From positions 4,157,501 to 4,221,500 of the forward strand of contig NZ_CP055263.1 in assembly GCF_014217835.1 (NCBI RefSeq): 64,000 bases of DNA, given 5' to 3'. Below are positions 16,685 through 51,617 of the stretch, piece by piece. The translations under genes and the position numbers were made by a program. Under the pieces are notes generated by a model, which was given only the letters and a program-made list of their open reading frames with translations, did no database searches and was not told where the DNA came from. Every line of letters begins with the position of its first letter. The stretch's first letter is position 1. The stretch comes from Metabacillus sp. KUDC1714. Its GTDB lineage: Bacteria > Bacillota > Bacilli > Bacillales > Bacillaceae.

Positions 16685-18574
16685 GTGCGCCCAGCATGGG
16701 TGCAGTCTATAGGGTGAAAGTCCCGAACTGTGAAGGCAGAAGTAGCAGTAGCTTAACGCAAGGGTGTCTGTGGTGACGCAGAATCTGAAGGAAGCGAGCG
16801 GCAAACCTCCGGTCTGAGGAACACGAACTTCATATAAGGCTAGATACCATTGGATGAGTTTGCTTAACAAAACAAAGTCCTTTCTGCCGAAGGTGGTATA
16901 GAGTAAATGAAGCAGATAGATGGAGTGAAAGACTGTACTCTTACCTGGGGAGGTCTGACTGATAAGCCAAGCACTCTTGGTAACCTATCTAGTGATAGAT
17001 AGCTGAACAGTCAGAAGTCAGCAGAGGTCATAGTACCTTTCAAACTCGAGAATGAAAGGGAAGGACTGAACAAGTTAGGAAGGATGAGAACTAGGCGTTC
17101 ATAAGTAGTGTAGAAGCAGACAATCTCTTACGAGACTTACTTGAAGGAAGAAGTGGTGAATACACAGGGGACTTCAAGAGGGTGGAGCTACTAATGGCAC
17201 AAATAGAACATCTCATTCACGTAGAGAGGATATATCTTAATGTTAATGGAACGAATTCTATCACGAGAAAACTTACTGAACGCTCTTAAACGAGTGGAAC
17301 GTAACGGAGGCAGTCACGGTGTAGACAAGATGTCGACCCAATACCTGCGTTCGTATATTGTCGAGCACTGGGACGAATTGAGAAAGTCTCTCCAACAGGG
17401 AACCTATGAACCTCAACCCGTTCGTCGTGTCGAAATCCCGAAACCAAACGGCGGAGTTAGATTACTAGGAATCCCTACCGTGATAGACCGTTTCATTCAA
17501 CAAGCGATTACTCAAACATTAACCCCAATTTATGACCCAACATTTTCTGAAAACAGTTATGGGTTTCGTCCACAAAGGCGAGGGCATGACGCTGTACGGA
17601 AAGCGAAAAGATACATCGAAGATGGTTATAGGTGGGTAGTCGACATAGACTTAGAGAAATTCTTCGATAAAGTGAACCATGACAAACTCATGGGGCTACT
17701 GTCAAAGCGTATTGACGATAAAGTTCTACTAAATCTTGTTCGAAAATATCTCAATGTCGGGATTATGATGGGTGGCGTGGTCTCACAAAATACAGAGGGA
17801 ACTCCACAAGGAGGTCCGCTAAGTCCACTACTTTCAAATATCATTCTAGATTTGTTAGATAAAGAATTAGAGAATAGAGGGCATAAATTCGTGAGGTATG
17901 CGGATGATTGTAATATTTACGTGAAATCTAAGAAAGCTGGCTTACGAACAATTGCGGGTGTAACGTCTTTCATTGAAAAGAAGCTTAGTTTAAAGGTAAA
18001 TCGTGAGAAATCAGCCGTAGATCGACCATGGAACCGAAAATTCTTAGGCTTTAGTTTTACTAACAGAAAAGAGCCGAAAATACGTATATCCAAACAAAGT
18101 ATCAAGAGATTTAAACAGAAGGTTAGGGAAATAACGTCAAGAAAATCACCGATACCAATGGATGTAAGAATAAAGAAATTAAATCAGTATTTAGTGGGTT
18201 GGTGTGGGTATTACGCATTGGCAGATACTCCAAGTATCTTTAAAGGTTTGGAAAGTTGGATTCGAAGAAGACTGAGATTGTGTTACTGGAAACAGTGGAA
18301 ACTTCCTAAAACAAGGATAAGGAAACTTATAGGACTAGGAATTGATAAACACAAAGCATATGAATGGGGAAATAGCAGAAAGGGCTACTGGCGAATAACC
18401 AGTAGTCCAATCCTTCACCGTGCCCTCAATAACTCTTTCTGGAGAAAAGAGGGTCTCAAAAGTCTATCTGAACGATACGAAACTTTACGTCACACTTAAT
18501 TTGAACCGCCGTATACCGAACGGTACGTACGGTGGTGTGAGAGGTCGGGGGTTAGTCACCCCCTCCTACTCGAT
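16685..18574 (+). mobile_element. Group IIC intron, copy 1 (intact)
   Basis: About 1,890 bases. It starts GTGCGCCCAGC, which fits the GUGYG group II consensus; domain I-III RNA lies in 16685-17239, the ORF in domain IV (17240-18499), and domain V at about 18504-18538 (CCGCCGTATACC, a GAAC loop and GGTACGTACGG). A CGC-type triad is visible, as in class C. Domain VI is about 18540-18574, with a bulged A near CCTACTCGAT. Insertion right after an intrinsic terminator is the hallmark of group IIC. The 3' end is placed at 18574 or 18575 because the two copies diverge after CGATT. Copy 2 at 49728-51617 has the same length. Confidence 0.93.
17240..18499 (+). CDS. ltrA: Group II intron reverse transcriptase/maturase (intact)
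   Basis: A 419-residue intron-encoded protein that helps splicing and copies the intron into DNA. Reverse transcriptase blocks in order: ENSYGFRPQRRGHDAV, VVDIDLEKFFDKVNHDKL (first catalytic Asp), GTPQGGPLSPLLSNI, and FVRYADDCNIYVKS, whose YADD box holds the catalytic aspartates. A maturase X domain follows (YLVGWCGYYALADTPS to the end). There is no HNH endonuclease domain, as usual for class C. ATG 17240 is preceded by GAGAGGA. Codon use is less AT-biased than that of neighbours. Confidence 0.93.
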   Translation: MLMERILSRENLLNALKRVERNGGSHGVDKMSTQYLRSYIVEHWDELRKSLQQGTYEPQPVRRVEIPKPNGGVRLLGIPTVIDRFIQQAITQTLTPIYDPTFSENSYGFRPQRRGHDAVRKAKRYIEDGYRWVVDIDLEKFFDKVNHDKLMGLLSKRIDDKVLLNLVRKYLNVGIMMGGVVSQNTEGTPQGGPLSPLLSNIILDLLDKELENRGHKFVRYADDCNIYVKSKKAGLRTIAGVTSFIEKKLSLKVNREKSAVDRPWNRKFLGFSFTNRKEPKIRISKQSIKRFKQKVREITSRKSPIPMDVRIKKLNQYLVGWCGYYALADTPSIFKGLESWIRRRLRLCYWKQWKLPKTRIRKLIGLGIDKHKAYEWGNSRKGYWRITSSPILHRALNNSFWRKEGLKSLSERYETLRHT

Positions 18575-18590
18575 TTGCAGTGACTTTTAT

Positions 18591-19808
18591 TTAGTTATTT
18601 TCTAATCTAATCGGTGGAGTGGCATATTCAGTTCTTAAGAGCTTTGAGCGAAGCGGTTCAGGAAATATCATATTATATGTAGCTGCAGCCTTTATATCTA
18701 ACTCCAGCAAAGGATGTTGAAAGGTTGATAGCTTAGATATAATCGGAAGTTCAATCTGTTTTTTTATAGAGTTTAAATATCCCTGACCTTTTGAAGACAT
18801 ACCTAATAACCTTATATATGGTGATGTTTCGCTCTGGTCGATATAACTCATCTGTTGTTTGGTTGTTTTCGTTAATAAATGTGTGCATAACCTTTGTAGT
18901 CTAGTCCATGTATACCGTTTCGTTTTGATACGTTCCATAAAATCTTGAAAACTAACAGCAGAATGTATGTTTTTTTTGATTCTGTTTTCTAAACCTTCTT
19001 CTACTTCATAAATCGTGAGTAGATCCTCTTCACTCATGGTCATAATAGAATACTTTAGTAAGTGAAAATAATATTCCCAATTGTGTAAGAGATCTTGTTG
19101 GTCTTTGTATTTGTCCATGACTTTTACCGTTTCCTTAGGAACATAATTTGCTACCTGATCTTTGTTTGCAAATATTGCTTTTCGAATACTTGTCGCACTA
19201 GCTATGGTAGAAGAGACAAAATCTTGTTCATGGTAACCGGCTGATGACCGTTTAATTGTATAAGGTTTTATTTTCGCTTGCTGTTGATGAATTGATTTTA
19301 CATAATGAAATCCAAGGATATTGTTGGGTAAAGATAAATCTAAAATTTCATGTCCGTTAGATAAGGATTGGAATGCAAGAGTTAATGCTGTAGGGTAACT
19401 CACACCAGTTTTAATATGGTGTTGGATTAACTCCTCATATTGCTTTTTGTTATGTATAAGAAATTCATTTGCAAGAAGGAAGGAAGAAATGTCTCCAGAT
19501 TCACTACCAAAGCATAGTGATTGACATTGTAAGGCCTCTAGGATAGAAACGGAACCATTTGCAAACGTCTCCGCTTTTTGTGTAGCAAATGCATAAGGTA
19601 ATTCAACAACCAAATCTACTCCACTATGTATAGCCATTTTCGTTCTATCCCATTTTGAGACAATAGCAGGTTCTCCTCTTTGCAGAAAGTTCCCACTCAT
19701 GACAGCAATAACAATATCTGCATTTGTTTCTTTAATGGATTGTGTTAAATGATAGTAATGTCCATTATGAAAAGGATTATATTCTACGATAAGGCCTAAG
19801 GCATTCAT
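18591..19808 (-). CDS. tmcAL: tRNA(Met) cytidine acetate ligase TmcAL
   Basis: A 405-residue nucleotidyltransferase-like enzyme (YlbM in B. subtilis) that uses acetate and ATP to form N4-acetylcytidine at the wobble base of elongator tRNA-Met. The N-terminal nucleotide-binding part is clear: GLIVEYNPFHNGHYYHL with the HNGH motif, VMSGNFLQRGEPAI, and DLVVELPYAFATQKAE (residues 5-85). ATG 19808 follows a weak GGTGATC. Intron copy 1 ends 16 bases from its stop codon, so the natural gap to ylbL has been invaded; no terminator for this gene is visible on the minus strand before the intron. Confidence 0.93.
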   Translation of the reverse strand: MNALGLIVEYNPFHNGHYYHLTQSIKETNADIVIAVMSGNFLQRGEPAIVSKWDRTKMAIHSGVDLVVELPYAFATQKAETFANGSVSILEALQCQSLCFGSESGDISSFLLANEFLIHNKKQYEELIQHHIKTGVSYPTALTLAFQSLSNGHEILDLSLPNNILGFHYVKSIHQQQAKIKPYTIKRSSAGYHEQDFVSSTIASATSIRKAIFANKDQVANYVPKETVKVMDKYKDQQDLLHNWEYYFHLLKYSIMTMSEEDLLTIYEVEEGLENRIKKNIHSAVSFQDFMERIKTKRYTWTRLQRLCTHLLTKTTKQQMSYIDQSETSPYIRLLGMSSKGQGYLNSIKKQIELPIISKLSTFQHPLLELDIKAAATYNMIFPEPLRSKLLRTEYATPPIRLENN

Positions 19809-26674: not shown

Positions 26675-26722
26675 GTGGAGATAAGTGGGGGAAAGTGGTG
26701 AGTTGAGGGGAGAAAGTGGGGG
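26675..26722 (+). promoter_or_regulatory. MraZ operator: tandem GTGG boxes with 10-bp period
   Basis: GTGG-type boxes start at 26675, 26685 and 26695, a GAGGGG variant at 26705, and another at 26716, i.e. about one helical turn apart (GTGGAGATAA, GTGGGGGAAA, GTGGTGAGTT, GAGGGGAGAA, GTGGGGGCAA). MraZ proteins are known to bind tandem TGGG-type repeats ahead of their own gene and repress the dcw operon. A weak AGGTAAAAT -10 element (26661-26669) lies just upstream. Confidence 0.8.
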
Positions 26723-26730
26723 CAACGAAC

Positions 26731-27162
26731 ATGTTTATGGGAGAATACCATCACACCATCGATTTAAAAGGCAGAATGATTGTCCCAGCTAAGTTCAGAG
26801 ATGGACTAGGAGAAACGTTCGTTATCACTAGAGGCCTCGACCAATGCTTATTTGGTTACCCAATGAGTGAATGGAAGCAAATTGAAGAAAAACTTAAAGC
26901 TCTCCCGCTAACCAAAAAAGATGCTCGTGCATTCACCCGTTTTTTCTTTTCAGGTGCGACTGAATGTGAATTAGACAAACAAGGTCGTGTCAATCTCGCT
27001 ACACCATTACTGCAATATGCAAAATTAGAGAAAGAGTGTGTTGTGATCGGCGTTTCAAATCGAATTGAACTATGGAGCAAGTCCAACTGGGAAAGTTATG
27101 TTGCTGAACAAGAAGATTCTTTTGAGGAAATTGCTGAAAATATGATTGATTTTGATATATAA
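26731..27162 (+). CDS. mraZ: Transcriptional regulator MraZ
   Basis: A 143-residue protein with two SpoVT-AbrB-like half domains ([20 protein letters not shown] at residues 1-20 and [19 protein letters not shown] at about 75-93), which assemble into a DNA-binding ring. It represses the division and cell-wall operon that it begins. The operator repeats lie directly upstream. ATG 26731 is used rather than the GTG at 26716, which lies in the last operator box; the ribosome site GTGGGGG is shared with that box, so bound MraZ would also cover it. Confidence 0.95.
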
Positions 27163-27236
27163 TCTTCACTTAAGCAAAAATGAGTAGCAGAGTGGACAAG
27201 CTAATAGAAAATTGATTTGAAAAGGTGGTACAACTT

Positions 27237-28175
27237 ATGTTTGAACATACAACCGTTCTATTGAAGGAAACAGTCGACGGCTTACAAGTTAAGGAAGATG
27301 GTACATATGTTGATTGTACGTTAGGTGGTGCTGGTCACAGTAGCTATCTTCTTTCTAAATTATCGAAAGATGGGCACCTATTTGCATTTGATCAGGATGA
27401 TATCGCATTAGCAAATGCTAAAGAAAAATTATCATCTTATGAAGGAAAGGTAACATTTATAAAAAGTAACTTCCGATACCTTACAGAAAAACTTGCAGAG
27501 CATGGTATTGAAAAGGTTGATGGGATTATTTTTGATTTAGGTGTCTCTTCACCACAATTGGATAATCCAGAAAGAGGATTTAGCTATCATCATGATGCTC
27601 CATTGGACATGAGAATGGACCAACAATCAGATGTATCTGCTTATGATGTTGTGAATCACTGGTCTTATGAAGATTTAGTAAGAATCTTTTTTAAATATGG
27701 TGAGGAAAAATTCTCAAAACAAATTGCGCGAAAAATTGAAGCACATCGGGAAAAAGAGCCAATTCGTACAACTGGAGAACTAGTAGAGATTATTAAAGAG
27801 GGGATACCAGCTCCGGCTCGCAGAAAAGGTGGACATCCTGCAAAACGTATTTTCCAAGCAATTAGGATTGCTGTAAACGATGAATTGAAGGTCTTTGAGG
27901 AGGCAATTGCACAATCAATTGAATTACTTAAACCAGAAGGAAGAGTAAGTGTCATTACTTTTCACTCTTTAGAAGATCGTATTTGCAAATCAGCCTTCAA
28001 GGAAGCGGCAACTCCACCTGAGCTTCCCCGTAACATGCCGTATTTACCTGAAGGTTACGAGCCTAAAATAAATATTGTTACAAGAAAACCAATCGTTCCA
28101 TCTGAAATAGAATTAGAAGAAAACAACCGAGCCAGATCAGCTAAGTTAAGGATCGCTGAAAAAATTAAAAACTGA
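27237..28175 (+). CDS. rsmH: 16S rRNA (cytosine-1402-N4)-methyltransferase RsmH
   Basis: A 312-residue methyltransferase (MraW) that methylates C1402 of 16S rRNA together with RsmI. SAM motif I is [12 protein letters not shown] (residues about 24-35), and [14 protein letters not shown] and [15 protein letters not shown] follow, as does [14 protein letters not shown] 27237 is eight bases after AAAGGTGG; the GTG at 27225 lies within that site. Second gene of the dcw cluster, 74 bases after mraZ. Confidence 0.96.
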
Positions 28176-28253
28176 AGCACCATAGTCGAATATGACTTTT
28201 GAGCTGGTAAAACCCCAAATATTATTGTAGTAAAATAAAAGGAGGTTGCATGT

Positions 28254-28622
28254 ATGAGTAATTTAGCGATGAAATTAGAACAGCAAAGACAGGAAAAACA
28301 ACAGCAGCAACATATGCCTGTATCAGAACCAATTATTATTAAACGAAGAGCTTCAATAACAAATGGGGAAAAAATACTGATGATCTTAGTTGTTGGTCTT
28401 TTTATTATAGCTGCAGTAAATATTGTTACTAAAAGCTATACAGTATATCAAGCGAATATTGAAATACAGAAAACCGAAGCTAAAATAGAAGAACAAACAA
28501 AGCTAAATAGTGACCTCCACGTACAGGTTGAAGAGTTAAGTACATATGATCGAATTTGGGAAAAAGCTAAAGAGTTAGGTTTGAAATTAGATCAAAACAA
28601 TGTGAAAAGTGTACAAGAATAA
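28254..28622 (+). CDS. ftsL: Cell division protein FtsL
   Basis: A 122-residue bitopic membrane protein: a glutamine-rich cytoplasmic part (residues 1-40), one membrane segment (about 43-62: ILMILVVGLFIIAAVNIV) and an extracellular coiled coil (about 65-115). It forms a complex with DivIC and DivIB and helps activate PBP2B at the septum; it is unstable in B. subtilis and so limits division. AAAGGAGG precedes the ATG. A terminator hairpin separates it from pbpB, which is unusual. Confidence 0.92.
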   Translation: MSNLAMKLEQQRQEKQQQQHMPVSEPIIIKRRASITNGEKILMILVVGLFIIAAVNIVTKSYTVYQANIEIQKTEAKIEEQTKLNSDLHVQVEELSTYDRIWEKAKELGLKLDQNNVKSVQE

Positions 28623-28637
28623 CACAGATATAAGGGG

Positions 28638-28684
28638 AAAAAGCTGAGTTACACTAGTTATAAACGTGTAACCAGCTTTTTTTC
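28638..28684 (+). terminator. Hairpin between ftsL and pbpB
   Basis: AAAAAGCTGAGTTACAC pairs with GTGTAACCAGCTTTTTTT (one mismatch), followed by seven T. This is a full intrinsic terminator inside the division cluster, and may act as a partial terminator or attenuator. Confidence 0.85.
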
Positions 28685-28704
28685 ATCACTCGATTGTTTC
28701 TATG

Positions 28705-28713
28705 TGGTAAAAT
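28705..28713 (+). promoter_or_regulatory. Candidate extended -10 promoter for pbpB
   Basis: TGGTAAAAT lies 24 bases before the pbpB start and just after the ftsL terminator; no good -35 is seen. The same nine bases precede ylbF and ylmD. Confidence 0.45.
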
Positions 28714-28736
28714 AAACACACGAGTAGGAGGTCCTT

Positions 28737-30926: not shown

Positions 30927-30937
30927 ATGGTGATTTT

Positions 30938-33029: not shown

Positions 33030-33035
33030 ATTGCA

Positions 33036-38742: not shown

Positions 38743-38822
38743 TAATCACGTTTCCATGTGAAAAGCATTGGCGTCAAACGATATACATACTAAAAAAATT
38801 CCATTAAAATGGGGGAGCTATC

Positions 38823-39917: not shown

Positions 39918-39936
39918 ACGCATTTAGGAGGTTGTT

Positions 39937-40845
39937 ATGTCTACTTTATATCAAGATTTAATTGAAGCGAATATCGGAAAGGTCCTTGAGAATGAACCTT
40001 TAGCAAAGCATACAACGATGAAAATTGGTGGCCCTGCAGAGATTTTTATAGAACCGAGCAACAGTGAACACCTAACTAAAGCTTTCCGCATTATAAAAAA
40101 ACATAATGTAAAGTGGAGAGCTATTGGCAGGGGATCAAATCTTCTTGTTGCAGACCAGGGAATTGAGGGTGTTGTAATTAAGCTTGGTTTAGGAATGGAT
40201 GATTTTGAATTAAATGGAGATACCCTTACTGTTGGCGGTGGATATTCTATCATAAAACTTGCAACAATTATTAGTAAAAAAGGTTTATCAGGTTTAGAAT
40301 TTTCCAGTGGAATACCAGGATCAATTGGTGGTGCCGTGTACATGAATGCTGGGGCACACGGAGCCGATATGTCAAAAATTCTTGTTAAAGCACATATTTT
40401 GTTTGAAGATGGTACGTTGGAATGGTTAACAAATGAAGAGATGAAGTTTTCCTACAGAACTTCTATTCTCCAAGAGGAAAGACCTGGAATATGCATCGGT
40501 GCGGTTTTAAAATTGCAAAAAGGGGAAAAAGAAAATATTGTCGCTGTTATGCAAAAAAATAAAGATTACAGGAGAGATACTCAGCCTTGGAATTATCCAT
40601 GTGCAGGAAGTATTTTTCGAAATCCCCTACCGAATTATGCAGGTCAACTAGTGGAGGACGCTGGATTGAAAGGTTATCAAATCGGTGGTGCAAAAATCTC
40701 AGAAATGCACGGAAACTTTATCGTAAATGCAGGTGGAGCAACAGCACAAGATGTGTTAGATCTTATTGATTTTGTCAAAAAAACCATCTATGAAAAATAT
40801 GAGGTATCGATGGAAACAGAAGTTGAAATAATAGGTCTTAAATAG
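39937..40845 (+). CDS. murB: UDP-N-acetylenolpyruvoylglucosamine reductase MurB
   Basis: A 302-residue FAD enzyme that reduces UDP-GlcNAc-enolpyruvate to UDP-MurNAc with NADPH. FAD-binding parts: [28 protein letters not shown], and [19 protein letters not shown]. The catalytic serine lies in [10 protein letters not shown] and the glutamate near the end in METEVEIIG. It is of the shorter type II form usual in bacilli. AGGAGG precedes the ATG. It sits between murG and divIB as in B. subtilis. Confidence 0.96.
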
Positions 40846-40958
40846 GCACAAACCTCCCAATAATTTCATTTCCTGTGTTATAATAACCATTAAGATCCAT
40901 TGGTCAATGAGTTACGTTAAAATGATATATTTTGTCGTTAAAAATGACTTTTTTATAG

Positions 40959-40995
40959 ATAAAACAAACGGCATATAAAATGCCGTTTGTTTTAT
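40959..40995. terminator. Intrinsic terminator after murB
   Basis: AAAACAAACGGCAT pairs perfectly with ATGCCGTTTGTTTT across four bases. The T-rich stem end can serve on both strands. Confidence 0.85.
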
Positions 40996-41153
40996 CGTTT
41001 AACATATATAGCGACTTTTCGTATGTTTTCGAAAAAAAATAACCAATTGTTAAGTTGTTTTTTTCCGTAATCAAAACGAGTGCTATGAAAGACAATGTCA
41101 AAAAATTGAATCAAAGATTGCCTAGAGTGTCTGCTAGGATGGGGTGAAAATGA

Positions 41154-41942
41154 TTGGAAAAAAAAGTTGTTTCGTTAGAGGACCGCATACCAAAGTTACA
41201 GCAGCAGCGAAAACAGAAGACAAACCGTAGACTAATTTCATTTTTATCCGTGTTTTTTCTCTTGATTTTGCTTGTAATCTACTTTCAATCTCCCTTAAGT
41301 AAGGTTGCGAGTATATCTGTTAAAGGAAATAAAACGGTTGATTCGGAAAAGATCATTGAATTGAGTGGAATAACCACCTCATCTGGTTTTTGGAGTATCA
41401 ATACAGATCAAGTAACAAATGCTGTCGAGAGTCTTTTACAAATAAAAGATGTAAAGGTAGAGAAGAAATTACCTAACGATATTGTTTTAGTTATTGAAGA
41501 GCATGACAGTATTGCTTATCTTGAAAAGGAAGGTTCCTATTTACCTATTCTTGAAAATGGACAAGTATTAAAGGATAAAAAGGAGACAGCTCCTGCAGAT
41601 GCTCCTGTTTTAATTGATTGGAAACGTGATGAAGATATACAGGTTATGATAAGTGAATTAAAAAAACTATCACCAGGCGTTTTTAATTCAATCTCTGAGA
41701 TCCATCATACTCCTGGGAAAACCGATCCTTGGTTAGTTCGACTTTATATGAATGATGGTTATGAAGTGATTGCTTCAGTTCGTACTTTTTCAAAGAAAAT
41801 GGACGCATACCCTTCTATTGTTAGTCAACTTGATGAAAACAGCATAGGAGTTATTCATTTGGAAGTAGGCTCTTACTTTGAATCCTATAAACCGCTACAG
41901 ACAGAGGAGGAAGCTGAAAGTGAAAATGAAACTGAGGGGTAG
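41154..41942 (+). CDS. divIB: Cell division protein DivIB (FtsQ)
   Basis: A 262-residue bitopic membrane protein of the divisome. A basic cytoplasmic part (residues 1-28) and a membrane segment (about 29-48) are followed by a POTRA domain (KVASISVKGNKTVDSEKII, about 52-120) and the FtsQ/DivIB beta domain (to about 245), with an acidic tail. It forms the FtsL-DivIC-DivIB complex. TTG start with AGGATGGGG upstream. It overlaps the ylxW start, so translation is coupled. Confidence 0.93.
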   Translation: MEKKVVSLEDRIPKLQQQRKQKTNRRLISFLSVFFLLILLVIYFQSPLSKVASISVKGNKTVDSEKIIELSGITTSSGFWSINTDQVTNAVESLLQIKDVKVEKKLPNDIVLVIEEHDSIAYLEKEGSYLPILENGQVLKDKKETAPADAPVLIDWKRDEDIQVMISELKKLSPGVFNSISEIHHTPGKTDPWLVRLYMNDGYEVIASVRTFSKKMDAYPSIVSQLDENSIGVIHLEVGSYFESYKPLQTEEEAESENETEG

Positions 41943-42636
41943 TTATGTTATTTTATCCCTTGTCCTTCTCGTTTTAGGGTTTTTAATTTCTTACTCATAT
42001 CAGCTTACAAAAGAAAGAAATCAAAATCGAACAATATCTGCTGAACAATGGGATAAAGAGTATGAAACAAGATCTTTACTTATTAACAATGAAGAAATAA
42101 ATCGAGATTTACAAAAGGAATTATATGCAAAACAAGAGGAAGTTAAGCAAATTGAAGAATCATTAAAGGATCAAAAGCAGGTTTATTATAATCTTGTAGA
42201 AGATGTAGAAAAATATCGTATGTATGTGGGCGATTTACCAGTGGTTGGAAAAGGAGTGCAAGTGACGTTAGAGGATGCATCTTATATACCTGAAGGCGAT
42301 AATGTTAATAATTATATCGTGCATGAGAGTCATATATTTAATGTTATTAACGAACTTTATATTTCAGGTGCAGATGCTATCTCCATTAACGGCCAAAGAT
42401 TATCAAGTGATTCCTATATATATTGTAATGGACCTGTTGTAACTGTTGATGGAAATCAATTTCCCGCTCCTTTTGTTATTTCTGCAATAGGTGATCCTAA
42501 TGTCTTACTCTCAGCGTTGAATATTGCTGGTGGTATTATCGATCAATTAGCTTATGATCATATTGTGGTAACAGTTGAAAAAAATGAGGAAATTAAAATG
42601 GATCCTTTATTACAAGAGCAAAAGACCCAGTCATAG
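41920..42636 (+). CDS. ylxW: DUF881 family protein YlxW
   Basis: A 238-residue protein with one N-terminal membrane segment (residues about 8-25), a coiled coil (about 50-90) and a C-terminal DUF881 domain (DLPVVGKGVQVTLEDA, ELYISGADAISINGQRLSS, PFVISAIGDP). Its function in division or the wall is unknown. GTG 41920 is nine bases after AGGAGG (41905-41910), while an in-frame ATG at 41926 is 15 bases away, so GTG is preferred. It overlaps divIB by 23 bases. Confidence 0.88.
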   Translation: MKMKLRGSYVILSLVLLVLGFLISYSYQLTKERNQNRTISAEQWDKEYETRSLLINNEEINRDLQKELYAKQEEVKQIEESLKDQKQVYYNLVEDVEKYRMYVGDLPVVGKGVQVTLEDASYIPEGDNVNNYIVHESHIFNVINELYISGADAISINGQRLSSDSYIYCNGPVVTVDGNQFPAPFVISAIGDPNVLLSALNIAGGIIDQLAYDHIVVTVEKNEEIKMDPLLQEQKTQS

Positions 42637-42698
42637 GAGTATCTACATACTGTTTTAAAGAGAGAAAGAATACATGTAAAGACAGATAGGTGGATGAT

Positions 42699-43427
42699 TT
42701 GAAGCAAACGAATTGGAAAAAGGGTATGAGTTTTTCTTTTTTAACGATGATATTTGGATTAATGCTTGCGATTCAATTTCAAACAATTAAAGAACCTATT
42801 GTACGAGATACACGTGATATGTGGCAGCTTAGGGAAGACTTAAAAAAGGAACAACAATTGCAAGTTGAACTGCTTTCTGAAATAAGAAAATATAATGAAA
42901 TTATCGAAACATATGAAGCAGAAGAAAATCAAAATCCAGAAGTAGCTTTAAAAGAAACATTAAATGTATTAAAAGAAGAGGCAGGTCTAACTGAAGTTAC
43001 CGGACCTGGTATTATCATTACAATTAACAGATTGTTTTCTGAAGAATTGATTGGTGAACCGTTACCAAATATCTCACCTGAACTGTTAAAACGCTTAATA
43101 AATGAATTAAATTCTTATGATGCCGAAGAAATTTCGATTCAAGGAAGGCGAGTAATTAATTCTACAGTGATAAGAGATATTAATGGACAAACGAAAATGG
43201 ACAACTATAGCTTACATACATATCCAATTGAGATTAAAGTAATCTCAGAAAATGCTGATAAGCTCTATAATCGGATGAACGCTTCGACAACTGACGAAGA
43301 TTTTGCGATTGATAACTTGAGTCTATCCGTTTCTAACCCAATTGATAGCATGACAATACCTGCATATGAAGATACAATTCGTGTTAAAAATATGAAGCCA
43401 TTAGAAATCGAAGAAGGGGGAAAATAA
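42699..43427 (+). CDS. ylxX: DUF881 family protein YlxX
   Basis: A 242-residue paralogue of the upstream YlxW with the same design: membrane anchor (residues about 10-27), coiled coil (about 40-75) and DUF881 domain (EVTGPGIIITINRLF, ELNSYDAEEISIQGRRVIN). TTG 42699 is six bases after AGGTGG; a GTG at 42690 lies inside that site. It is followed after one base by sbp. The two DUF881 genes probably arose by duplication, as in B. subtilis. Confidence 0.87.
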   Translation: MKQTNWKKGMSFSFLTMIFGLMLAIQFQTIKEPIVRDTRDMWQLREDLKKEQQLQVELLSEIRKYNEIIETYEAEENQNPEVALKETLNVLKEEAGLTEVTGPGIIITINRLFSEELIGEPLPNISPELLKRLINELNSYDAEEISIQGRRVINSTVIRDINGQTKMDNYSLHTYPIEIKVISENADKLYNRMNASTTDEDFAIDNLSLSVSNPIDSMTIPAYEDTIRVKNMKPLEIEEGGK

Positions 43428-43428
43428 A

Positions 43429-43791
43429 ATGTGGCTTCCTATATTAGGTCTTATTCTTGGTGTCTTTTTAGGATTGATATCAGAGATGCGTATTCCCCCA
43501 GAGTACTCAAATTATTTATCAATAGCTATATTAGCTGCACTTGATACATTGTTAGGTGGAATCCGAGCACATCTTCAAGATATTTACGATGAAACGGTGT
43601 TCGTTTCAGGTTTTTTCTTTAACATTATTTTAGCTGCAAGTTTAGCTTTTCTCGGTGTTCATCTTGGTGTAGACTTATACTTAGTAGCTGTCTTTGCATT
43701 TGGTGTAAGACTTTTCCAAAATATTGCGGTTATTAGAAGAATTTTGATATCAAAATGGTCTATTTCTAGAGGAAAGTTGAAAAAAAATTGA
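43429..43791 (+). CDS. sbp: Small basic membrane protein Sbp (DUF1290)
   Basis: A 120-residue membrane protein with three to four hydrophobic segments, almost the same length as B. subtilis Sbp. Recognised by EMRIPPEYSNYLSIAILAAL and GGIRAHLQDIYDETVFVSGF. Its function is unknown, but it stands ahead of ftsA in many bacilli. It starts one base after the ylxX stop. Confidence 0.92.
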   Translation: MWLPILGLILGVFLGLISEMRIPPEYSNYLSIAILAALDTLLGGIRAHLQDIYDETVFVSGFFFNIILAASLAFLGVHLGVDLYLVAVFAFGVRLFQNIAVIRRILISKWSISRGKLKKN

Positions 43792-43816
43792 ATATTTAAA
43801 AGGGAATATCAAGTAT

Positions 43817-43845
43817 TTGACGAATAAACACTATTAAGGCAAAAT
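43817..43845 (+). promoter_or_regulatory. Candidate sigma-A promoter of ftsA-ftsZ
   Basis: TTGACG (43817-43822), 17 bases, CAAAAT (43840-43845), about 115 bases ahead of ftsA. B. subtilis has several promoters in this gap, one of them for sigma-H; I cannot place a sigma-H promoter here with confidence. Confidence 0.45.
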
Positions 43846-43959
43846 CAAGAAAATATTCAAAAAATAATTTTGTTACAAACATGTAAAACTAGATTCATTG
43901 TCATGTTGTTCTTCAACGAATAGAATAGAAAGTATTGATAGATAAGGAGGTGCCTTAGA

Positions 43960-45246
43960 ATGAACAACAATGAATTATTTGTAAGTCTTGACATCGGTAC
44001 ATCCAGTGTTAAAGTAATTATTGGTGAAATGACGAATGATGCTTTAAACATTATAGGTGTAGGTAATGTAAAATCAGAAGGTTTAAGAAAAGGATCTATA
44101 GTTGATATAGATGAAACCGTTCATTCTATAAAAAAAGCGGTAGAGCAAGCTGAAAGAATGGTAGGAATCTCCTTAAAGAGAGTAGTTGTAGGAGTAACAG
44201 GGAATCATGTGCATTTGCAAGATTGCCATGGAGTCGTAGCGGTCTCAAGCGAAAATCGCGAAATATCTAATGAAGATGTAAGAAGAGTAATCGAGGCAGC
44301 TCAAGTAATTTCCATTCCTCCAGAACGAGAAATAATTGATGTAATCCCAAGACAATTTATTGTTGATGGATTAGATGAAATCAATGATCCTAGAGGAATG
44401 CTAGGTGTTCGTTTGGAAATGGAAGGCACAATTATTACAGGTTCTAAAACGATATTACATAATTTGTTACGATGTGTAGAACGCGCTGGCTTAGAAATTA
44501 CTGATATTTGTTTACAACCACTAGCTGCTGGTTCTGTAGCGTTGTCTAAGGATGAGAAAAATCTTGGAGTAGCTCTTATTGACATCGGTGGTGGATCTAC
44601 AACCATTTCTGTGTTTGAGCAAAATCACCTTTTTGCAACGATTGTTCTTCCAATTGGTGGAGAACATATTACAAAGGACTTATCAATCGGTCTTCGTACA
44701 ACAACAGATGAAGCCGAACGAATTAAAGTTAAATATGGACACGCTTTTTACGATCATGCATCTGAAGATGAAGTGTTTGAAGCTACTATTATTGGATCAG
44801 ATCAAAAGCGAGACTTTAATCAATTAGAAATAGCTGATATTATTGAAGCAAGACTTGAAGAGATATATGAGTTAATTCTATATGAATTAAAAAGACTAGG
44901 TGTAAGTGAGTTACCAGGTGGGTTTGTATTAACTGGTGGAACAGTTAGAATGTCTGGAGTCCTTGAATTAGGACAAGCTGTCCTTCAAAACAGTGTAAGA
45001 ATAGCTAGTCCGGATTATATTGGAGTGAGAGAACCTCAATATATGACTGGTGTAGGCTTAATACAATTTGCACATAAAAATGCTAAAATTCAAGGGAGAA
45101 AGATTGGTTCTAACGTTTCAGTGAATGCTGTTGAAGTAGCAGCTGCAAAGGAACCATCACATCAACAACGTACAACACAAAAGCAACAGCCAGAAGATAA
45201 AAAAGTAAACAAAGTAAAGAAGTTCTTTGGCTACTTCTTTGAATAG
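43960..45246 (+). CDS. ftsA: Cell division protein FtsA
   Basis: A 428-residue actin-like ATPase that ties FtsZ filaments to the membrane. The ATPase fold shows SLDIGTSSVKVIIGE (residues 9-23), ALIDIGGGSTTISVFE (about 205-220) and GFVLTGGTVRMSGV (about 324-337). The C-terminal amphipathic membrane helix is KVNKVKKFFGYFFE. AAGGAGGTG precedes the ATG. It is followed by ftsZ after 41 bases, in one operon. Confidence 0.97.
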   Translation: MNNNELFVSLDIGTSSVKVIIGEMTNDALNIIGVGNVKSEGLRKGSIVDIDETVHSIKKAVEQAERMVGISLKRVVVGVTGNHVHLQDCHGVVAVSSENREISNEDVRRVIEAAQVISIPPEREIIDVIPRQFIVDGLDEINDPRGMLGVRLEMEGTIITGSKTILHNLLRCVERAGLEITDICLQPLAAGSVALSKDEKNLGVALIDIGGGSTTISVFEQNHLFATIVLPIGGEHITKDLSIGLRTTTDEAERIKVKYGHAFYDHASEDEVFEATIIGSDQKRDFNQLEIADIIEARLEEIYELILYELKRLGVSELPGGFVLTGGTVRMSGVLELGQAVLQNSVRIASPDYIGVREPQYMTGVGLIQFAHKNAKIQGRKIGSNVSVNAVEVAAAKEPSHQQRTTQKQQPEDKKVNKVKKFFGYFFE

Positions 45247-45287
45247 TTCACATCAATTAGTTATTTGATGGATTAGGAGGATTTCGC

Positions 45288-46433
45288 ATGTTGGAGTTTG
45301 ATACAAATATTGACGGCTTAGCTACCATCAAGGTAATCGGTGTAGGTGGCGGTGGTAATAACGCTGTTAATCGAATGATAGAGCATGGTGTTCAAGGTGT
45401 TGAGTTTATTGCTGTCAACACTGATGCACAAGCTTTAAATTTATCTAAAGCAGAAATTAAAATGCAAATCGGTTCAAAGCTTACTCGTGGATTAGGAGCA
45501 GGTGCAAATCCAGAGGTTGGTAAAAAAGCTGCTGAAGAAAGTAGAGAGCAGGTTGAAGAAGCATTACGAGGCGCGGATATGGTATTCGTTACTGCTGGAA
45601 TGGGCGGAGGAACAGGAACTGGTGCTGCACCTGTAATCGCTCAAATTGCAAAGGATTTAGGTGCGCTAACAGTTGGTGTTGTTACAAGACCATTTACATT
45701 TGAAGGTCGTAAACGTGCGATGCAAGCTGCGGGTGGAATTTCATCAATGAAGGAATCTGTTGATACACTTATTGTAATCCCTAATGACCGATTACTTGAG
45801 ATCGTTGACAAAAATACACCAATGCTCGAAGCTTTCAGAGAAGCAGATAACGTATTACGTCAAGGTGTTCAAGGTATTTCAGACTTAATCGCAAAACCAG
45901 GACTTATTAATCTTGATTTCGCAGATGTCAAAACAATTATGTCTAATAGAGGTTCTGCACTAATGGGGATTGGTGTAGCTACTGGAGAAAGTCGTGCTAC
46001 TGAGGCTGCTAAAAAGGCTATTTCAAGTCCATTACTTGAGACATCAATTGATGGTGCTCAAGGTGTTCTTATGAATATTACTGGTGGCAATAATTTAAGC
46101 TTATACGAGGTTCAAGAAGCAGCAGATATTGTTGCATCTGCTTCAGACCAGGAAGTTAATATGATCTTTGGATCTGTTATTAATGAAAACCTAAAGGATG
46201 AAATTATTGTAACCGTGATTGCAACTGGATTTGCAGAACAAGATGTTAACCCTTTAAAACAACAAACGCGTCAATTTGGTGGAGGGAGTAACACAGGTAC
46301 AAACCCAGCGCCAAAACGTGAGATAAAGCGTGAAGAACCACTTCATGAAACAACATCTCGTAATAATGTTCAACAATCGGATGAAGCTTTAGATATTCCT
46401 ACATTTTTAAGAAATCGTAACAAACGACGATAA
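45288..46433 (+). CDS. ftsZ: Cell division protein FtsZ
   Basis: A 381-residue tubulin-like GTPase that forms the Z ring. GTP-binding parts: [12 protein letters not shown] (residues about 18-29), the tubulin signature [10 protein letters not shown] (about 105-114), and [14 protein letters not shown] [11 protein letters not shown] (about 208-218) with the T7 loop aspartates. A variable linker (about 316-365) ends in the conserved C-terminal peptide [14 protein letters not shown] that binds FtsA, SepF and ZapA-type partners. TTAGGAGG precedes the ATG. Confidence 0.98.
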
Positions 46434-46445
46434 TCGATTATGAAT

Positions 46446-46488
46446 AAAAAAAGAGTGCTAATTCAATGATGAATTGCACTCTTTTTTT
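46446..46488 (+). terminator. Intrinsic terminator after ftsZ
   Basis: AAGAGTGCTAATTCA pairs with TGAATTGCACTCTT (one bulge or mismatch), with A run before and T run after. It closes the ftsAZ operon. Confidence 0.92.
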
Positions 46489-46587
46489 ATGTGATTTGCT
46501 AAGTTATCGAAAATGGCTGAATAATATAGTTTCCTTATTCTAAATTTAACTTTTTCTACTTTTGTCTCTGTTTATTCCTTACAAACG

Positions 46588-46599
46588 ACTCGACAAAAA
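46588..46599. promoter_or_regulatory. Possible 0A box ahead of spoIIGA
   Basis: ACTCGACAAAAA, read on the other strand as TTTTTGTCGAGT, differs by one base from the Spo0A box TGTCGAA. The spoIIG operon of B. subtilis is activated by Spo0A from 0A boxes, but this one lies about 265 bases ahead of the gene and no matching sigma-A promoter with a long spacer was found. Confidence 0.25.
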
Positions 46600-46759
46600 T
46601 TCTAATAATCTATCAAAAATACTTACACTTTCTCGGCAGTAAGTGACAGACTTCATGGCTGTGACGATTTATACTAAATTCTAACAGGTCCTCTTATATG
46701 ACCGAATCTAATTGGGCTTTTTGAAAGGATTAAAAGAATTGGTTTAATACTTAGTTTGG

Positions 46760-46839
46760 GTGTCTAATTATAGCGTCTCTCCCCTCGAGGTCATAAGCGT
46801 TATAATGTACGAGGCTAATCAAGAGAGCTTACGCTTTTA
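46760..46839. repeat. Dispersed palindromic repeat, family 1, copy C (remnant)
   Basis: TGTCTAATTATAGCG, CCCCTCGAGGTCATAAGCG, ACGAGGCTAATCAAG and GCTTACGCTTTTATAAC are recognisable; the inner palindrome is gone. It lies just upstream of spoIIGA within a 427-base gap whose first 270 bases hold only the ftsZ terminator and AT-rich DNA. Confidence 0.6.
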
Positions 46840-46860
46840 TAACAGGGAAAGGAGTAACAG

Positions 46861-47793
46861 ATGTCTATCTATTTAGACGTTATTTGGCTCTTAAACTTTT
46901 CCTTTGATTTGTTTCTGCTTTTATTAACAGCCATTGCATTGAAAAGGAAAATATTCAAACTACGAATACTTCTATCAGCTCTTTTAGGTTCAAGCATTGT
47001 CCTTATGATGTTTTCACCATTAGCTTTTATAGCTACACATCCAATAGGGAAAATGATCATTTCAATGATGATGGTTTTACTAGCATTTGGTTTTAAACGA
47101 TTTCGTTACTTTTTTCAAAGCTTGCTAACCTTTTATTTTGTCACTTTTATGGTAGGTGGCGGCATGATAGGTGCACATTATTTTTTGCAGGCAGAAATGA
47201 GTTACTTGGATGGGGTTTTAATGACAAATTCAACTGGATTCGGACACCCAATAAGCTGGTTGTTTGTACTTATAGGTTTTCCAGTTGTATGGATCTTTTC
47301 AAGAAATCGCCTTGAAGGTTTAGAGGCAAAAAAAATCCATTTCGATCAATTGGTGACTGTTACGATAAGAGTGGAATCAACTCAGTTTACATTAAATGGG
47401 TTGGTTGATAGTGGGAATCAGCTTTTTGATCCGATAACAAGAAGTCCAGTAATGATTATTGATACTTTGAAGGCTCAGAACTACATACCAAAGCCTTTGG
47501 TAAATCAAGCCATCCAAGATGATGTAATGAAATCGATGAGTGAGAGTGGCAATGAAAGTCACCCTTGGGAACATCGAGTGAGAATAATTCCATATCGAGT
47601 TGTTGGGAGTGAGCATCAATTCTTATTAGGTTTTAAACCTGATGAAGTGTGGATAGAAACGAAAAACGAAAAAATTAAGGTACATAAAACGATTGTAGGG
47701 TTGAATCGAACAAAATTGTCCTCTGAAGATGAATATGAATGTATTGTCCATCCAAAGATGCTTCAAGGTCAATCTATCGAGCACGTATCTTAA
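46861..47793 (+). CDS. spoIIGA: SpoIIGA, pro-sigma-E processing protease
   Basis: A 310-residue protein: five membrane segments (residues about 5-150) and a cytoplasmic aspartic protease domain with the DSG motif in LVDSGNQLFDP (about residue 181). After a signal from SpoIIR in the forespore, it removes the pro-sequence of sigma-E in the mother cell. GGAAAGGAG precedes the ATG. In B. subtilis sigE follows almost at once; here a 261-base gap with a repeat lies between them. Confidence 0.95.
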   Translation: MSIYLDVIWLLNFSFDLFLLLLTAIALKRKIFKLRILLSALLGSSIVLMMFSPLAFIATHPIGKMIISMMMVLLAFGFKRFRYFFQSLLTFYFVTFMVGGGMIGAHYFLQAEMSYLDGVLMTNSTGFGHPISWLFVLIGFPVVWIFSRNRLEGLEAKKIHFDQLVTVTIRVESTQFTLNGLVDSGNQLFDPITRSPVMIIDTLKAQNYIPKPLVNQAIQDDVMKSMSESGNESHPWEHRVRIIPYRVVGSEHQFLLGFKPDEVWIETKNEKIKVHKTIVGLNRTKLSSEDEYECIVHPKMLQGQSIEHVS

Positions 47794-47870
47794 AAGAACA
47801 CTTTCTTCTATTTTACTCTGATTCTTTTATTTTAGAAGTTAAGAAATTATAAGTTTTTTTACTTTAGTTT

Positions 47871-48037
47871 GTGTCTAGTTCCACCACTATGAGCGAGACA
47901 CTTCTGCATTTCTAATGTCTAGCACCAGTGCCTAGCCCTTCGAGTCATAAGCCACTCATGAATGGAAGGTAAGGAATACCTTCTATTCATGAGCGTCTTA
48001 TGCTAGTCGGGGCTTAGTCTAGGCACTTCCGCATTTC
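47871..48037. repeat. Dispersed palindromic repeat, family 1, copy D, inside the spoIIG operon
   Basis: It starts with a partial unit GTGTCTAGTTCCACCA...GAGACACTTCTGCATTTCT, followed by a fuller unit: GTCTAGCACCAGTGCCTAG, CCTTCGAGTCATAAGCC, inner palindrome CTCATGAATGGAAGGT/ACCTTCTATTCATGAG, then GTCTTATGCTAGTCGGGG and TCTAGGCACTTCCGCATTTCT. It separates spoIIGA from sigE. No terminator or promoter is obvious, so read-through is expected. Confidence 0.82.
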
Positions 48038-48054
48038 TAAGAAGGGGGAGGAAA

Positions 48055-48774
48055 ATGAAAAAGTTAAAATTACACATTACTTACCTATGGTATAAGCTAT
48101 TAATCAAGCTAGGACTCAAATCAGATGAGGTTTATTACATCGGTGGCAGCGAAGCCTTACCACCACCTCTCTCAAAGGATGAAGAGGAAGTACTTTTACA
48201 AAAGCTGCCTACAGGTGATCAGGCAGCTAGAGCGATTCTGATTGAAAGAAACTTACGCCTAGTTGTGTATATTGCTCGTAAATTTGAAAATACGGGTATT
48301 AATATCGAGGATTTAATTAGTATTGGAACAATTGGCTTAATAAAGGCTGTAAATACGTTTAATCCGGAAAAGAAAATCAAGCTTGCTACGTATGCTTCTA
48401 GGTGTATCGAAAATGAAATTCTCATGTATTTACGAAGAAATAATAAATTGCGATCAGAGGTTTCTTTTGATGAACCTTTGAATATCGATTGGGATGGAAA
48501 TGAATTACTTTTATCAGATGTATTAGGAACTGAAGATGACATTATTACAAAGGACCTTGAAGCAAATGTCGATCGTAAATTATTAATGAAAGCTCTTCAA
48601 CAACTTAATGATCGAGAAAAACAAATTATGGAACTTCGCTTTGGATTGCAGGGTGGTGAAGAAAAGACACAGAAAGATGTTGCTGACATGCTTGGCATCT
48701 CACAATCGTATATTTCAAGGTTAGAAAAACGGATAATAAAAAGATTACAAAAGGAATTTAATAAAATGGTTTAA
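48055..48774 (+). CDS. sigE: RNA polymerase sigma-E (pro-sigma-E)
   Basis: A 239-residue sigma-70 family factor that runs early mother-cell gene expression in sporulation. The N-terminal pro-sequence (about 27 residues, amphipathic, [17 protein letters not shown]) precedes the mature start near [12 protein letters not shown] and is removed by SpoIIGA. Region 2 has [12 protein letters not shown] and [14 protein letters not shown]; region 4 is [27 protein letters not shown] precedes the ATG. It is followed by sigG after 144 bases. Confidence 0.97.
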
Positions 48775-48853
48775 AAAAAAATTTTAACCTAACTTTTCCT
48801 TATTGTATCAATTAAAATTCGCATTTCTATCCTTCCTAACTCGAATAGCTTGT

Positions 48854-48881
48854 GCATATTTTTTCCTCTCGAGGAGATACT
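48854..48881 (+). promoter_or_regulatory. Candidate sigma-F/sigma-G promoter of sigG
   Basis: GCATA (48854-48858), 14 bases, GGAGATACT (48873-48881). This fits GYATA and GGnRAnAnT. sigG is known to be started by sigma-F and amplified by sigma-G. The spacing equals that of the candidate promoter for the csfG-like RNA. Confidence 0.65.
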
Positions 48882-48918
48882 TAACACTGTACAGCAACTC
48901 CTGTTAGGAGGGAAAGAA

Positions 48919-49698
48919 GTGACAAGAAATAAAGTCGAAATTTGTGGAGTAGATACCTCAAAGCTTCCAGTCCTTAAGAACGAGAAAATGAGAGAGCTAT
49001 TTAAGCAAATGCAAAGCGGAGACTTATCAGCAAGAGAAGAGCTGGTGAATGGCAACTTAAGATTGGTACTCAGTGTAATCCAGCGATTTAACAACAGAGG
49101 AGAATTTGTTGACGATTTGTTTCAAGTTGGCTGTATTGGATTAATGAAATCAATCGATAATTTTGACTTAGGCCAGAATGTCAAATTTTCAACATATGCT
49201 GTACCAATGATCATCGGAGAAATTCGTAGATATTTAAGGGACAACAATCCAATTCGTGTCTCCCGTTCACTTCGTGATATCGCTTATAAGGCTCTTCAGG
49301 TTAGAGAAAGACTTATGAGTGAGACATCAAGAGAACCAACTGCTGAGGAAATCTCAAAGGTGCTAGAGGTTCCACATGAAGAAATTGTTTTTGCGCTTGA
49401 TGCCATTCAAGATCCCGTTTCATTATTTGAACCTATCTATAATGATGGGGGAGATCCAATCTTTGTGATGGACCAGCTAAGTGATGAAAAAAATCGTGAT
49501 ATTCAATGGATTGAAGAATTAGCTTTAAAAGAAGGAATGAGACGACTTAATAGTCGTGAAAAGCTAATTCTTAGAAAACGATTTTTTCAAGGAAAAACAC
49601 AAATGGAAGTTGCCGAAGAAATCGGAATTTCTCAAGCTCAAGTTTCTAGGTTAGAAAAGGCTGCTATTAAACAAATGAATAAAAATATTCAAAACTAA
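48919..49698 (+). CDS. sigG: RNA polymerase sigma-G
   Basis: A 259-residue sigma factor for late forespore genes. It opens TRNKVEICGVDTSKLPVL, the conserved N-terminal part seen in B. subtilis; region 2 is NGNLRLVLSVIQRFNNRG and DDLFQVGCIGLMKSID, and region 4 is EVAEEIGISQAQVSRLEK. GTG start with TTAGGAGGG at 48905-48912; the ATG at 48850 is upstream of or inside the promoter and is rejected. It is followed at once by a terminator into which intron copy 2 has inserted. Confidence 0.96.
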   Translation: MTRNKVEICGVDTSKLPVLKNEKMRELFKQMQSGDLSAREELVNGNLRLVLSVIQRFNNRGEFVDDLFQVGCIGLMKSIDNFDLGQNVKFSTYAVPMIIGEIRRYLRDNNPIRVSRSLRDIAYKALQVRERLMSETSREPTAEEISKVLEVPHEEIVFALDAIQDPVSLFEPIYNDGGDPIFVMDQLSDEKNRDIQWIEELALKEGMRRLNSREKLILRKRFFQGKTQMEVAEEIGISQAQVSRLEKAAIKQMNKNIQN

Positions 49699-49725
49699 GA
49701 CTGCTCCTTGTGAGTGGTCTTTTTT
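49697..49725 (+). terminator. Intrinsic terminator of sigG, target of intron copy 2
   Basis: AAGACTGCTC pairs with GAGTGGTCTT (inner mismatch) over CTTGT and is followed by five more T. The intron begins three bases on, after AA, just as at the ylbL site. Confidence 0.85.
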
Positions 49726-49727
49726 AA

Positions 49728-51617
49728 GTGTGCCCAGCATGGGTGCAGTCTATAGGGTGAAAGTCCCGAACTGTGAAGGCAGAAGTAGCAGTAGCTTAAC
49801 GCAAGGGTGTCTGTGGTGACGCAGAATCTGAAGGAAGCGAGCGGCAAACCTCCGGTCTGAGGAACACGAACTTCATATAAGGCTAGATACCATTGGATGA
49901 GTTTGCTTAACAAAACAAAGTCCTTTCTGCCGAAGGTGGTATAGAGTAAATGAAGCAGATAGATGGAGTGAAAGACTGTACTCTTACCTGGGGAGGTCTG
50001 ACTGATAAGCCAAGCACTCTTGGTAACCTATCTAGTGATAGATAGCTGAACAGTCAGAAGTCAGCAGAGGTCATAGTACCTTTCAAACTCGAGAATGAAA
50101 GGGAAGGACTGAACAAGTTAGGAAGGATGAGAACTAGGCGTTCATAAGTAGTGTAGAAGCAGACAATCTCTTACGAGACTTACTTGAAGGAAGAAGTGGT
50201 GAATACACAGGGGACTTCAAGAGGGTGGAGCTACTAATGGCACAAATAGAACATCTCATTCACGTAGAGAGGATATATCTTAATGTTAATGGAACGAATT
50301 CTATCACGAGAAAACTTACTGAACGCTCTTAAACGAGTGGAACGTAACGGAGGCAGTCACGGTGTAGACAAGATGTCGACCCAATACCTGCGTTCGTATA
50401 TTGTCTAGCACTGGGACGAATTGAGAAAGTCTCTCCAACAGGGAACCTATGAACCTCAACCCGTTCGTCGTGTCGAAATCCCGAAACCAAACGGCGGAGT
50501 TAGATTACTAGGAATCCCTACCGTGATAGACCGTTTCATTCAACAAGCGATTACTCAAACATTAACCCCAATTTATGACCCAACATTTTCTGAAAACAGT
50601 TATGGGTTTCGTCCACAAAGGCGAGGGCATGACGCTGTACGGAAAGCGAAAAGATACATCGAAGATGGTTATAGGTGGGTAGTCGACATAGACTTAGAGA
50701 AATTCTTCGATAAAGTGAACCATGACAAACTCATGGGGCTACTGTCAAAGCGTATTGACGATAAAGTTCTACTAAATCTTGTTCGAAAATATCTCAATGT
50801 CGGGATTATGATGGGTGGCGTGGTCTCACAAAATACAGAGGGAACTCCACAAGGAGGTCCGCTAAGTCCACTACTTTCAAATATCATTCTAGATTTGTTA
50901 GATAAAGAATTAGAGAATAGAGGGCATAAATTCGTGAGGTATGCGGATGATTGTAATATTTACGTGAAATCTAAGAAAGCTGGCTTACGAACAATGGCGG
51001 GTGTAACGTCTTTCATTGAAAAGAAGCTTAGTTTAAAGGTAAATCGTGAGAAATCAGCCGTAGATCGACCATGGAACCGAAAATTCTTAGGCTTTAGTTT
51101 TACTAACAGAAAAGAGCCGAAAATACGTATATCCAAACAAAGTATCAAGAGATTTAAACAGAAGGTTAGGGAAATAACGTCAAGAAAATCACCGATACCA
51201 ATGGATGTAAGAATAAAGAAATTAAATCAGTATTTAGTGGGTTGGTGTGGGTATTACGCATTGGCAGATACTCCAAGTATCTTTAAAGGTTTGGAAAGTT
51301 GGATTCGAAGAAGACTGAGATTGTGTTACTGGAAACAGTGGAAACTTCCTAAAACAAGGATAAGGAAACTTATAGGACTAGGAATTGATAAACACAAAGC
51401 ATATGAATGGGGAAATAGCAGAAAGGGCTACTGGCGAATAACCAGTAGTCCAATCCTTCACCGTGCCCTCAATAACTCTTTCTGGAGAAAAGAGGGTCTC
51501 AAAAGTCTATCTGAACGATACGAAACTTTACGTCACACTTAATTTGAACCGCCGTATACCGAACGGTACGTACGGTGGTGTGAGAGGTCGGGGGTTAGTC
51601 ACCCCCTCCTACTCGAT
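49728..51617 (+). mobile_element. Group IIC intron, copy 2 (same length, RT interrupted)
   Basis: 1,890 bases, nearly identical to 16685-18574. I see three differences: GTGTG instead of GTGCG at the 5' end (position 49731), G-to-T at 50406 giving a stop in the reverse transcriptase, and ATT-to-ATG at about 50997 (Ile to Met). The RNA domains, including domain V and VI, are unchanged as far as I can read, so the RNA could still fold and splice if maturase is supplied from copy 1. It stands right after the sigG terminator. Confidence 0.93.
50283..51542 (+). pseudogene. ltrA: Group II intron reverse transcriptase with nonsense codon (E42*)
   Basis: The frame corresponds to the intact 419-codon gene at 17240, but codon 42 is TAG (50406-50408) in place of GAG. 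The remaining 377 codons stay open, with all RT blocks and the X domain unchanged apart from one Ile-to-Met. A TTG at 50421 could restart but has no good ribosome site and would lose the first 46 residues. Full-length protein would need suppression of the stop or supply from copy 1. Confidence 0.9.

Follow-up and report, generated by a model that had tools for sequence, protein, structure and literature searches.

Sequence comparisons in Metabacillus sp. KUDC1714 indicate, with a probability of about 93%, that one group IIC intron came to occupy five or more sites on the chromosome after this lineage had split from that of its near relative G052, each time by reverse splicing at a terminator with an AA|T tail, and that the two copies found in the 64,000-bp stretch of DNA analysed here (the window) are two independent landings. 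The identity and number of the copies, the star-like pattern of their differences, the hairpin and IBS1/EBS1 match at their targets and the absence of the intron from the same sites in G052 were all observed directly. The result is a clean case of a terminator-targeting retroelement burst, with five near-identical copies and target sites that lack the intron in a close relative.

The two window copies (copies 1 and 2, Table 1) are 1,890 bp long each, lie on the same strand and are separated by 33,043 bp from start to start. Base-by-base comparison gave exactly three substitutions and no indels, in line with the equal length, same orientation and about three differences of the original prediction. 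The substitutions are located at offset 4 (16688 C in copy 1, 49731 T in copy 2), offset 679 (17363 G and 50406 T) and offset 1269 (17953 T and 50996 G). The immediate flanks of the two copies are unlike, except for ...TTTTTAA on the 5' side and a T on the 3' side.

Table 1. Features of the window related to the two intron copies.
Feature	Position	Strand	Basis and remarks
Intrinsic terminator of ylbL, 5' exon and target of copy 1	16644..16684	+	Hairpin 16644-16680, T-run to 16682, AA 16683-16684; RNAfold -22.5 kcal/mol
Group IIC intron, copy 1, complete, maturase gene open	16685..18574	+	Rfam RF02001, RF01998, RF00029; GTGCG start, ...CGAT end
EBS1 (TTAA), domain I loop of copy 1	16864..16867	+	4/4 pairing with IBS1 TTAA (16681-16684); pairing covaries in related introns
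Intron-encoded protein of copy 1, 419 aa, RVT_1 and GIIM maturase, no endonuclease, private M238I	17240..18499	+	TIGR04416 428 bits, Pfam
Domains V-VI, 3' end of copy 1	18504..18574	+	RF00029, 45.6 bits
Nucleotidyltransferase gene, convergent with ylbL, last base 17 bp from intron end	18591..19808	-	NCBIfam, Pfam
Division/sporulation block between the copies: mraZ, rsmH, two spoVD/PBP-like genes, murE, mraY, murD, spoVE/ftsW-like gene, murG, murB, ftsA, ftsZ, spoIIGA, sigE, sigG	26716..49698	+	NCBIfam; part of the frames searched
Intrinsic terminator of sigG, target of copy 2	49697..49727	+	Hairpin 49697-49721, T-run, AA 49726-49727; RNAfold
Group IIC intron, copy 2	49728..51617	+	Pairwise comparison, Rfam, genome copy search
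EBS1 (TTAA) of copy 2	49907..49910	+	Domain I loop, pairing and covariation
Maturase frame of copy 2, broken at codon 42 by an in-frame stop (50406-50408)	50283..51542	+	Model search, codon comparison
Domains V-VI, 3' end of copy 2	51547..51617	+	RF00029

Judged from their sequence, both window copies are group IIC introns, as had been proposed: the assignment is based on the Rfam core, an RT/maturase without endonuclease, the intron ends, the terminator target and the EBS1-IBS1 pairing. Rfam models for the domain I-IV motifs and for domains V-VI scored identically in both copies (RF02001, 140.9 bits; RF01998, 78.4 bits; RF00029, 45.6 bits). The consensus ends of such introns are GUGYG at the 5' side and AY at the 3' side, and all five copies of this genome start with GTGCG or GTGTG and end in GAT. 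In the 419-aa maturase, Pfam placed RVT_1 at residues 66-272 and GIIM at 288-358; no endonuclease or any further Pfam domain was detected at an E-value of 0.001. A model search of the maturase frames found a single TAG, in copy 2, the frames of the remaining four copies being free of stops. Copy 2 is probably unable to make the full maturase, and the other copies could supply maturase in trans for its RNA; the ribozyme and four of the five maturases are presumably still functional. This stop codon, which begins at 50406, had gone unnoticed in the original prediction, as had three more full copies elsewhere in the genome.

The genome, a single contig of 5,764,082 bp, contains five full copies: the two in the window and three at C1:3734804-3736693 (+), C1:1040943-1042832 (-) and C1:5684264-5686153 (-), which are at least 437 kb away. 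With five copies scattered over the chromosome, it is plausible that the presence of a pair in the window is incidental. Eight sites vary among the copies, and at every one of them a single copy alone differs, so that a minority base in two or more copies was found at 0 of 8 sites. Relative to the majority, there is one change in copy 1 (1269, M238I), one in L002 (67), two in L003 (508; 847, Y98H), two in copy 2 (4; 679, the stop at codon 42) and two in L005 (217, 494). Pairwise distances range from 2 to 4, that of the window pair being 3.

At 5 of the 8 sites (4, 67, 679, 847 and 1269), the majority base is also that of the three outgroup introns compared, and at 217 and 494 one of the three differs. 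At site 508 two of the three carry the L003 base, so the base of the other four copies may be the derived one. The star of private changes thus appears not fully polarised, and sequencing or polishing errors in repeated copies might mimic or hide some of these changes.

A tie between the window copies, either through local duplication or through gene conversion keeping them alike, would account for their having just three differences in 1,890 bp. However, no base is common to the window pair alone, the three copies at least 437 kb away are equally alike (2-4 differences), the flanks differ, and frequent conversion predicts minority bases held by two copies, of which there were none. This explanation is therefore very improbable. 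Because the window pair is no closer than the other pairs and carries private changes only, it is not special, and gene conversion or a special tie was rejected. The original prediction had left a choice between recent copying and gene conversion: the recent copying holds, and the conversion does not, the pair being two of five star-like copies.

All five introns are co-directional with replication, if the origin is placed at dnaA (C1:1958909) and the terminus is assumed to lie half-way. Since most genes of such genomes are co-directional with replication anyway, five out of five is not significant, and an orientation bias of the introns was dismissed.

Both window copies are located behind intrinsic terminators, those of a SepM-family protease gene (NCBIfam; the ylbL of the original prediction) and of sigG. 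This placement had been predicted, with a gap of two to three bases; RNAfold recovered hairpin and T-run at both places, and the gap was found to be two bases (AA) after the T-run in both copies. The ylbL terminator has a 17-bp stem and that of sigG a 10-bp stem, the -14.3 kcal/mol of the latter referring to the folded 55 nt with a small second hairpin included. For the 55 bases upstream of L001-L005 (L001 is copy 1, L004 is copy 2) the energies were -22.5, -15.8, -23.3, -14.3 and -20.9 kcal/mol. The search for genome copies away from terminators gave the same picture, with hairpin, T-run and AA on the 5' side of all five copies (RNAfold). The +1 base is T in all five; the position of EBS3 was not located. 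In a strict hairpin test four of the five copies pass and L002 fails because its stem is bulged, RNAfold still giving -15.8 kcal/mol.

A domain I loop, GC-TTAA-CA, provides the EBS1 sequence UUAA; in 5/5 copies the upstream exon ends in UUAA, and these four bases pair with EBS1. It is this UUAA loop that would make the intron choose terminators with AA|T after the U-tract. Taken by itself, the motif TTTTTAAT shows no enrichment in the window (22 occurrences, 20.0 expected). A consensus terminator scan of 16000-19900 returned 2 sites against 2.3 in shuffles, and gave the ylbL palindrome on the minus strand only, not on the plus strand.

Target choice was analysed in a wider sample, the best 80 of at least 568 named maturase relatives, which show 59-74% identity and are nearly all from Bacillota; the 5' end of the intron was recognised in 74 of the 80. 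The hairpin test was applied to 76 introns, the five own copies and those relatives with at least 40 upstream bases; loci left out had no recognised 5' end (L007, L012, L017, L019, L029, L086) or fewer than 40 upstream bases (L008, L041, L057). Hairpin and T-run were found in 69 of the 76, compared with 50 of 2,262 control stretches, which were random places in the same loci and not picked as gene ends, so that the contrast would shrink against intergenic DNA. Among the seven failures of the strict test, L002, L016, L035 and L044 have no stem under the rules used; L045, L074 and L083 fail on too few T, their stems being long and perfect or near-perfect.

EBS1 and IBS1 were compared in 75 readable loci (4 of 79, L021, L030, L057 and L073, are omitted from the count): all four positions pair in 48, three in 21 and two in 6. 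The 48 full matches compare with a mean of 5.4 and a maximum of 15 in shuffles. Copies within one genome are not independent, and the test was repeated with one intron per lineage, using 43 hand-made groups; about 24 of the 43 showed full matches (shuffles, mean 2.4, maximum 8). This four-base covariation, which involves 24 distinct EBS1 sequences, makes the choice of target predictable.

The joined flanks of the five sites were searched in 21 genomes of the genus, own included. This genus is probably Metabacillus, the L091 stretch of its member G057 being contained in the Metabacillus litoralis record L012. G052 is without this intron at all five sites, which points to a recent retrotransposition burst. 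Four of the sites have no intron in G052 (Rfam on three, the L003 site by eye), and the sigG site has a different IIC intron. The upstream flanks in G052 are 92-98% identical at four sites, and the joined L002 site is 88% identical. The ylbL hairpin is present, and behind it lies an unrelated insert of about 230 bp; the L002 and L003 sites are empty, with their hairpins in place; the L005 site is empty as well, with hairpin and downstream flank aligning (80%) and about 580 extra bases between the hairpin and the upstream gene.

The different IIC intron of G052 lies at the sigG terminator after TTTTTTAT (locus L232, G052:C1:474000-488200, start at reverse-complement position 462). Pieces of its maturase show 44% and 49% identity to the own maturase. 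It is split by an insertion, with long frames that by eye resemble tyrosine recombinases, and its loop reads AUAA, the complement of TTAT (by eye).

At Rfam gathering scores, the ylbL site was free of group II introns in 19 loci (G052 and 18 genus members, no locus being obtained from G071), and the sigG site in 18 of 19 loci, G052 being the exception (no locus from G055); a few of the loci are cut by contig ends. A hairpin like the sigG terminator is kept in 16 of the 18 intron-less genus loci (by eye), and L167 and L169 have a different one. Genomes of the genus have between 0 and 26 group II RT matches, fragments counted, so five copies are not exceptional.

The search for a donor in 80 genomes of the family, own included and with at most 4 candidates scored per genome, turned up no likely one: full-length matches outside the own genome were of at most 75%. 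Shorter outside matches, under the same limit of candidates, reached 91% for 257 bp in G057 and 100% for 74 bp in G078. G078 is from a different genus within the family. Three 74-bp stretches on its contigs C90, C70 and C66 are 100% identical to the last 74 intron bases; two of them lie at contig ends, and a 5' match has 86% identity over 73 bases. This could reflect recent transfer or a chimeric intron, or the end may simply be conserved.

The original prediction had placed the mur-fts-sigE/G block between the two copies, and NCBIfam matched its genes there. Loss of this block would be lethal. Recombination between the 1,890-bp direct repeats across the block is possible; such a risk comes with repeats of any kind, and the importance of those round the block is confined to the duplications that they might give rise to. 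The position of direct repeats of this length, 33,043 bp apart, round division and sporulation genes could also mean that the pair serves, or has been selected, as a recombination handle which duplicates or inverts the block. However, in G052 this intron is missing from both borders, and the order and distance of the borders are kept, ylbL and sigG being on one contig in the same orientation, 32.1 kb apart; no duplication was seen in the window. A recombination handle is likewise very improbable, slightly more so than a tie between the copies. Least probable of all is that one window copy is an assembly artefact, a repeat collapsed or wrongly duplicated: 1.9-kb repeats are hard for short reads, but the genome is one contig, the flanks are unlike at all five places and copy 2 has changes of its own at offsets 4 and 679.

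Downstream from copy 1, the convergent nucleotidyltransferase gene, which we take to be ylbM, is parted by 1.9 kb of intron from the palindromic ylbL hairpin. This hairpin is probably a terminator shared with the convergent gene. To judge from the gene order, with copy 1 between gene and hairpin, the transcripts of the gene may run antisense through the intron. The consensus scan of 16000-19900 gave one weak candidate for a minus-strand terminator inside copy 1, which was not above chance.

The preferred explanation, independent landings of one intron, would proceed as follows. A group IIC intron with an endonuclease-less RT/maturase would have reached at least five chromosomal sites after the lineage split from G052. 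At each landing, the intron RNP would reverse-splice into the DNA strand that forms the terminator hairpin. Copies 1 and 2 would be separate landings behind ylbL and sigG, and would bracket the mur-fts-sigE/G block by chance. By analogy with what has been published on class C introns that lack an endonuclease, the reaction may use single-stranded terminator DNA at replication forks.

The original prediction had attributed the choice of terminators to a known rule of IIC introns. Indeed, PMC8919778 and PMC4424553 report that class C introns insert after terminators, and PMC8919778 cites Robart 2007 for a preference for the template of the lagging strand. That IIC introns target terminators has been published before, and the introns described here are an ordinary instance of the group.

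B.h.I1, named in PMC4424553, is a bacterial group IIC (class C) intron. Introns of the B.h.I1 type share with those of the window a small ribozyme, an RT and maturase without endonuclease and a site behind a terminator hairpin. The host of B.h.I1 is H. halodurans, and the maturase of locus L082 from Halalkalibacterium halodurans is 66% identical to the own maturase, with EBS1 reading CUAA there and UUAA here. A IIC intron of Geobacillus stearothermophilus, reportedly the subject of a 2018 paper by Mohr et al. (listed among the references of PMC8919778) with "highly proliferative" in its title, is said to be present in several copies per genome; the likeness lies in the IIC class and the proliferation. 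The group IIC-attC introns of integrons, as presented in PMC4424553, are also of class C and also use a hairpin-type DNA target, but the targets here are terminators and not attC sites. Within the limited literature collection searched, no paper was found that deals with group II introns and Metabacillus together.

These results raise a broader proposal, the odds of which we judge to be even: class C introns may read a lineage-specific four-base code in the terminator tail, EBS1 picking terminators with a complementary U-tract end and so predicting which gene ends are hit. Popular terminators such as that of sigG would be captured repeatedly by different lineages (UUAA here, AUAA in the sister G052), even beside essential sporulation and division genes. 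The use of one terminator by two IIC lineages in sister species and the lineage-varying four-base tail match are useful additions to the terminator-targeting rule.

Other group II remnants were observed in the genome. One, at C1:5030933-5031124 (L006; RF02001, 33.2 bits), is a degraded IIC-like 5' part that adjoins, on the minus strand, a strong hairpin (by eye). RT fragments at C1:2967612-2968099 lie next to a match to domain model RF02005, and another, different domain V is located at C1:1420559-1420635.

An imperfect palindromic repeat of about 170 bp, with the core CAGCGCCTAGCCCCTC, occurs in the window at about 51624-51786 and about 56050-56215, with weaker core matches at 493 and 47925. 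A link between this abundant repeat and the introns was considered and set aside. It follows the intron at two of the five sites, copy 2 and L003; in the stretches of G052 inspected, it was found at neither the L003 site nor the sigG site. The core has 49 exact occurrences in the genome, 42 of which are co-directional with replication (terminus assumed half-way). Loci for inspection were available for 30 of the 49 cores, and in 15 of these 30 a terminator-like hairpin was found in a 90-base stretch whose end lies 40 bases before the core, compared with 24 of 1,200 random stretches. No paper of the limited literature collection searched contained a 14-base piece of the core. The repeat is also frequent in relatives within the genus.

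Rfam searches of the window also identified RNA leaders: a ylbH leader (11832-11959), a T-box (56229-56458) and three PyrR-binding leaders (61672-61800, 62409-62529 and 63881-64000).
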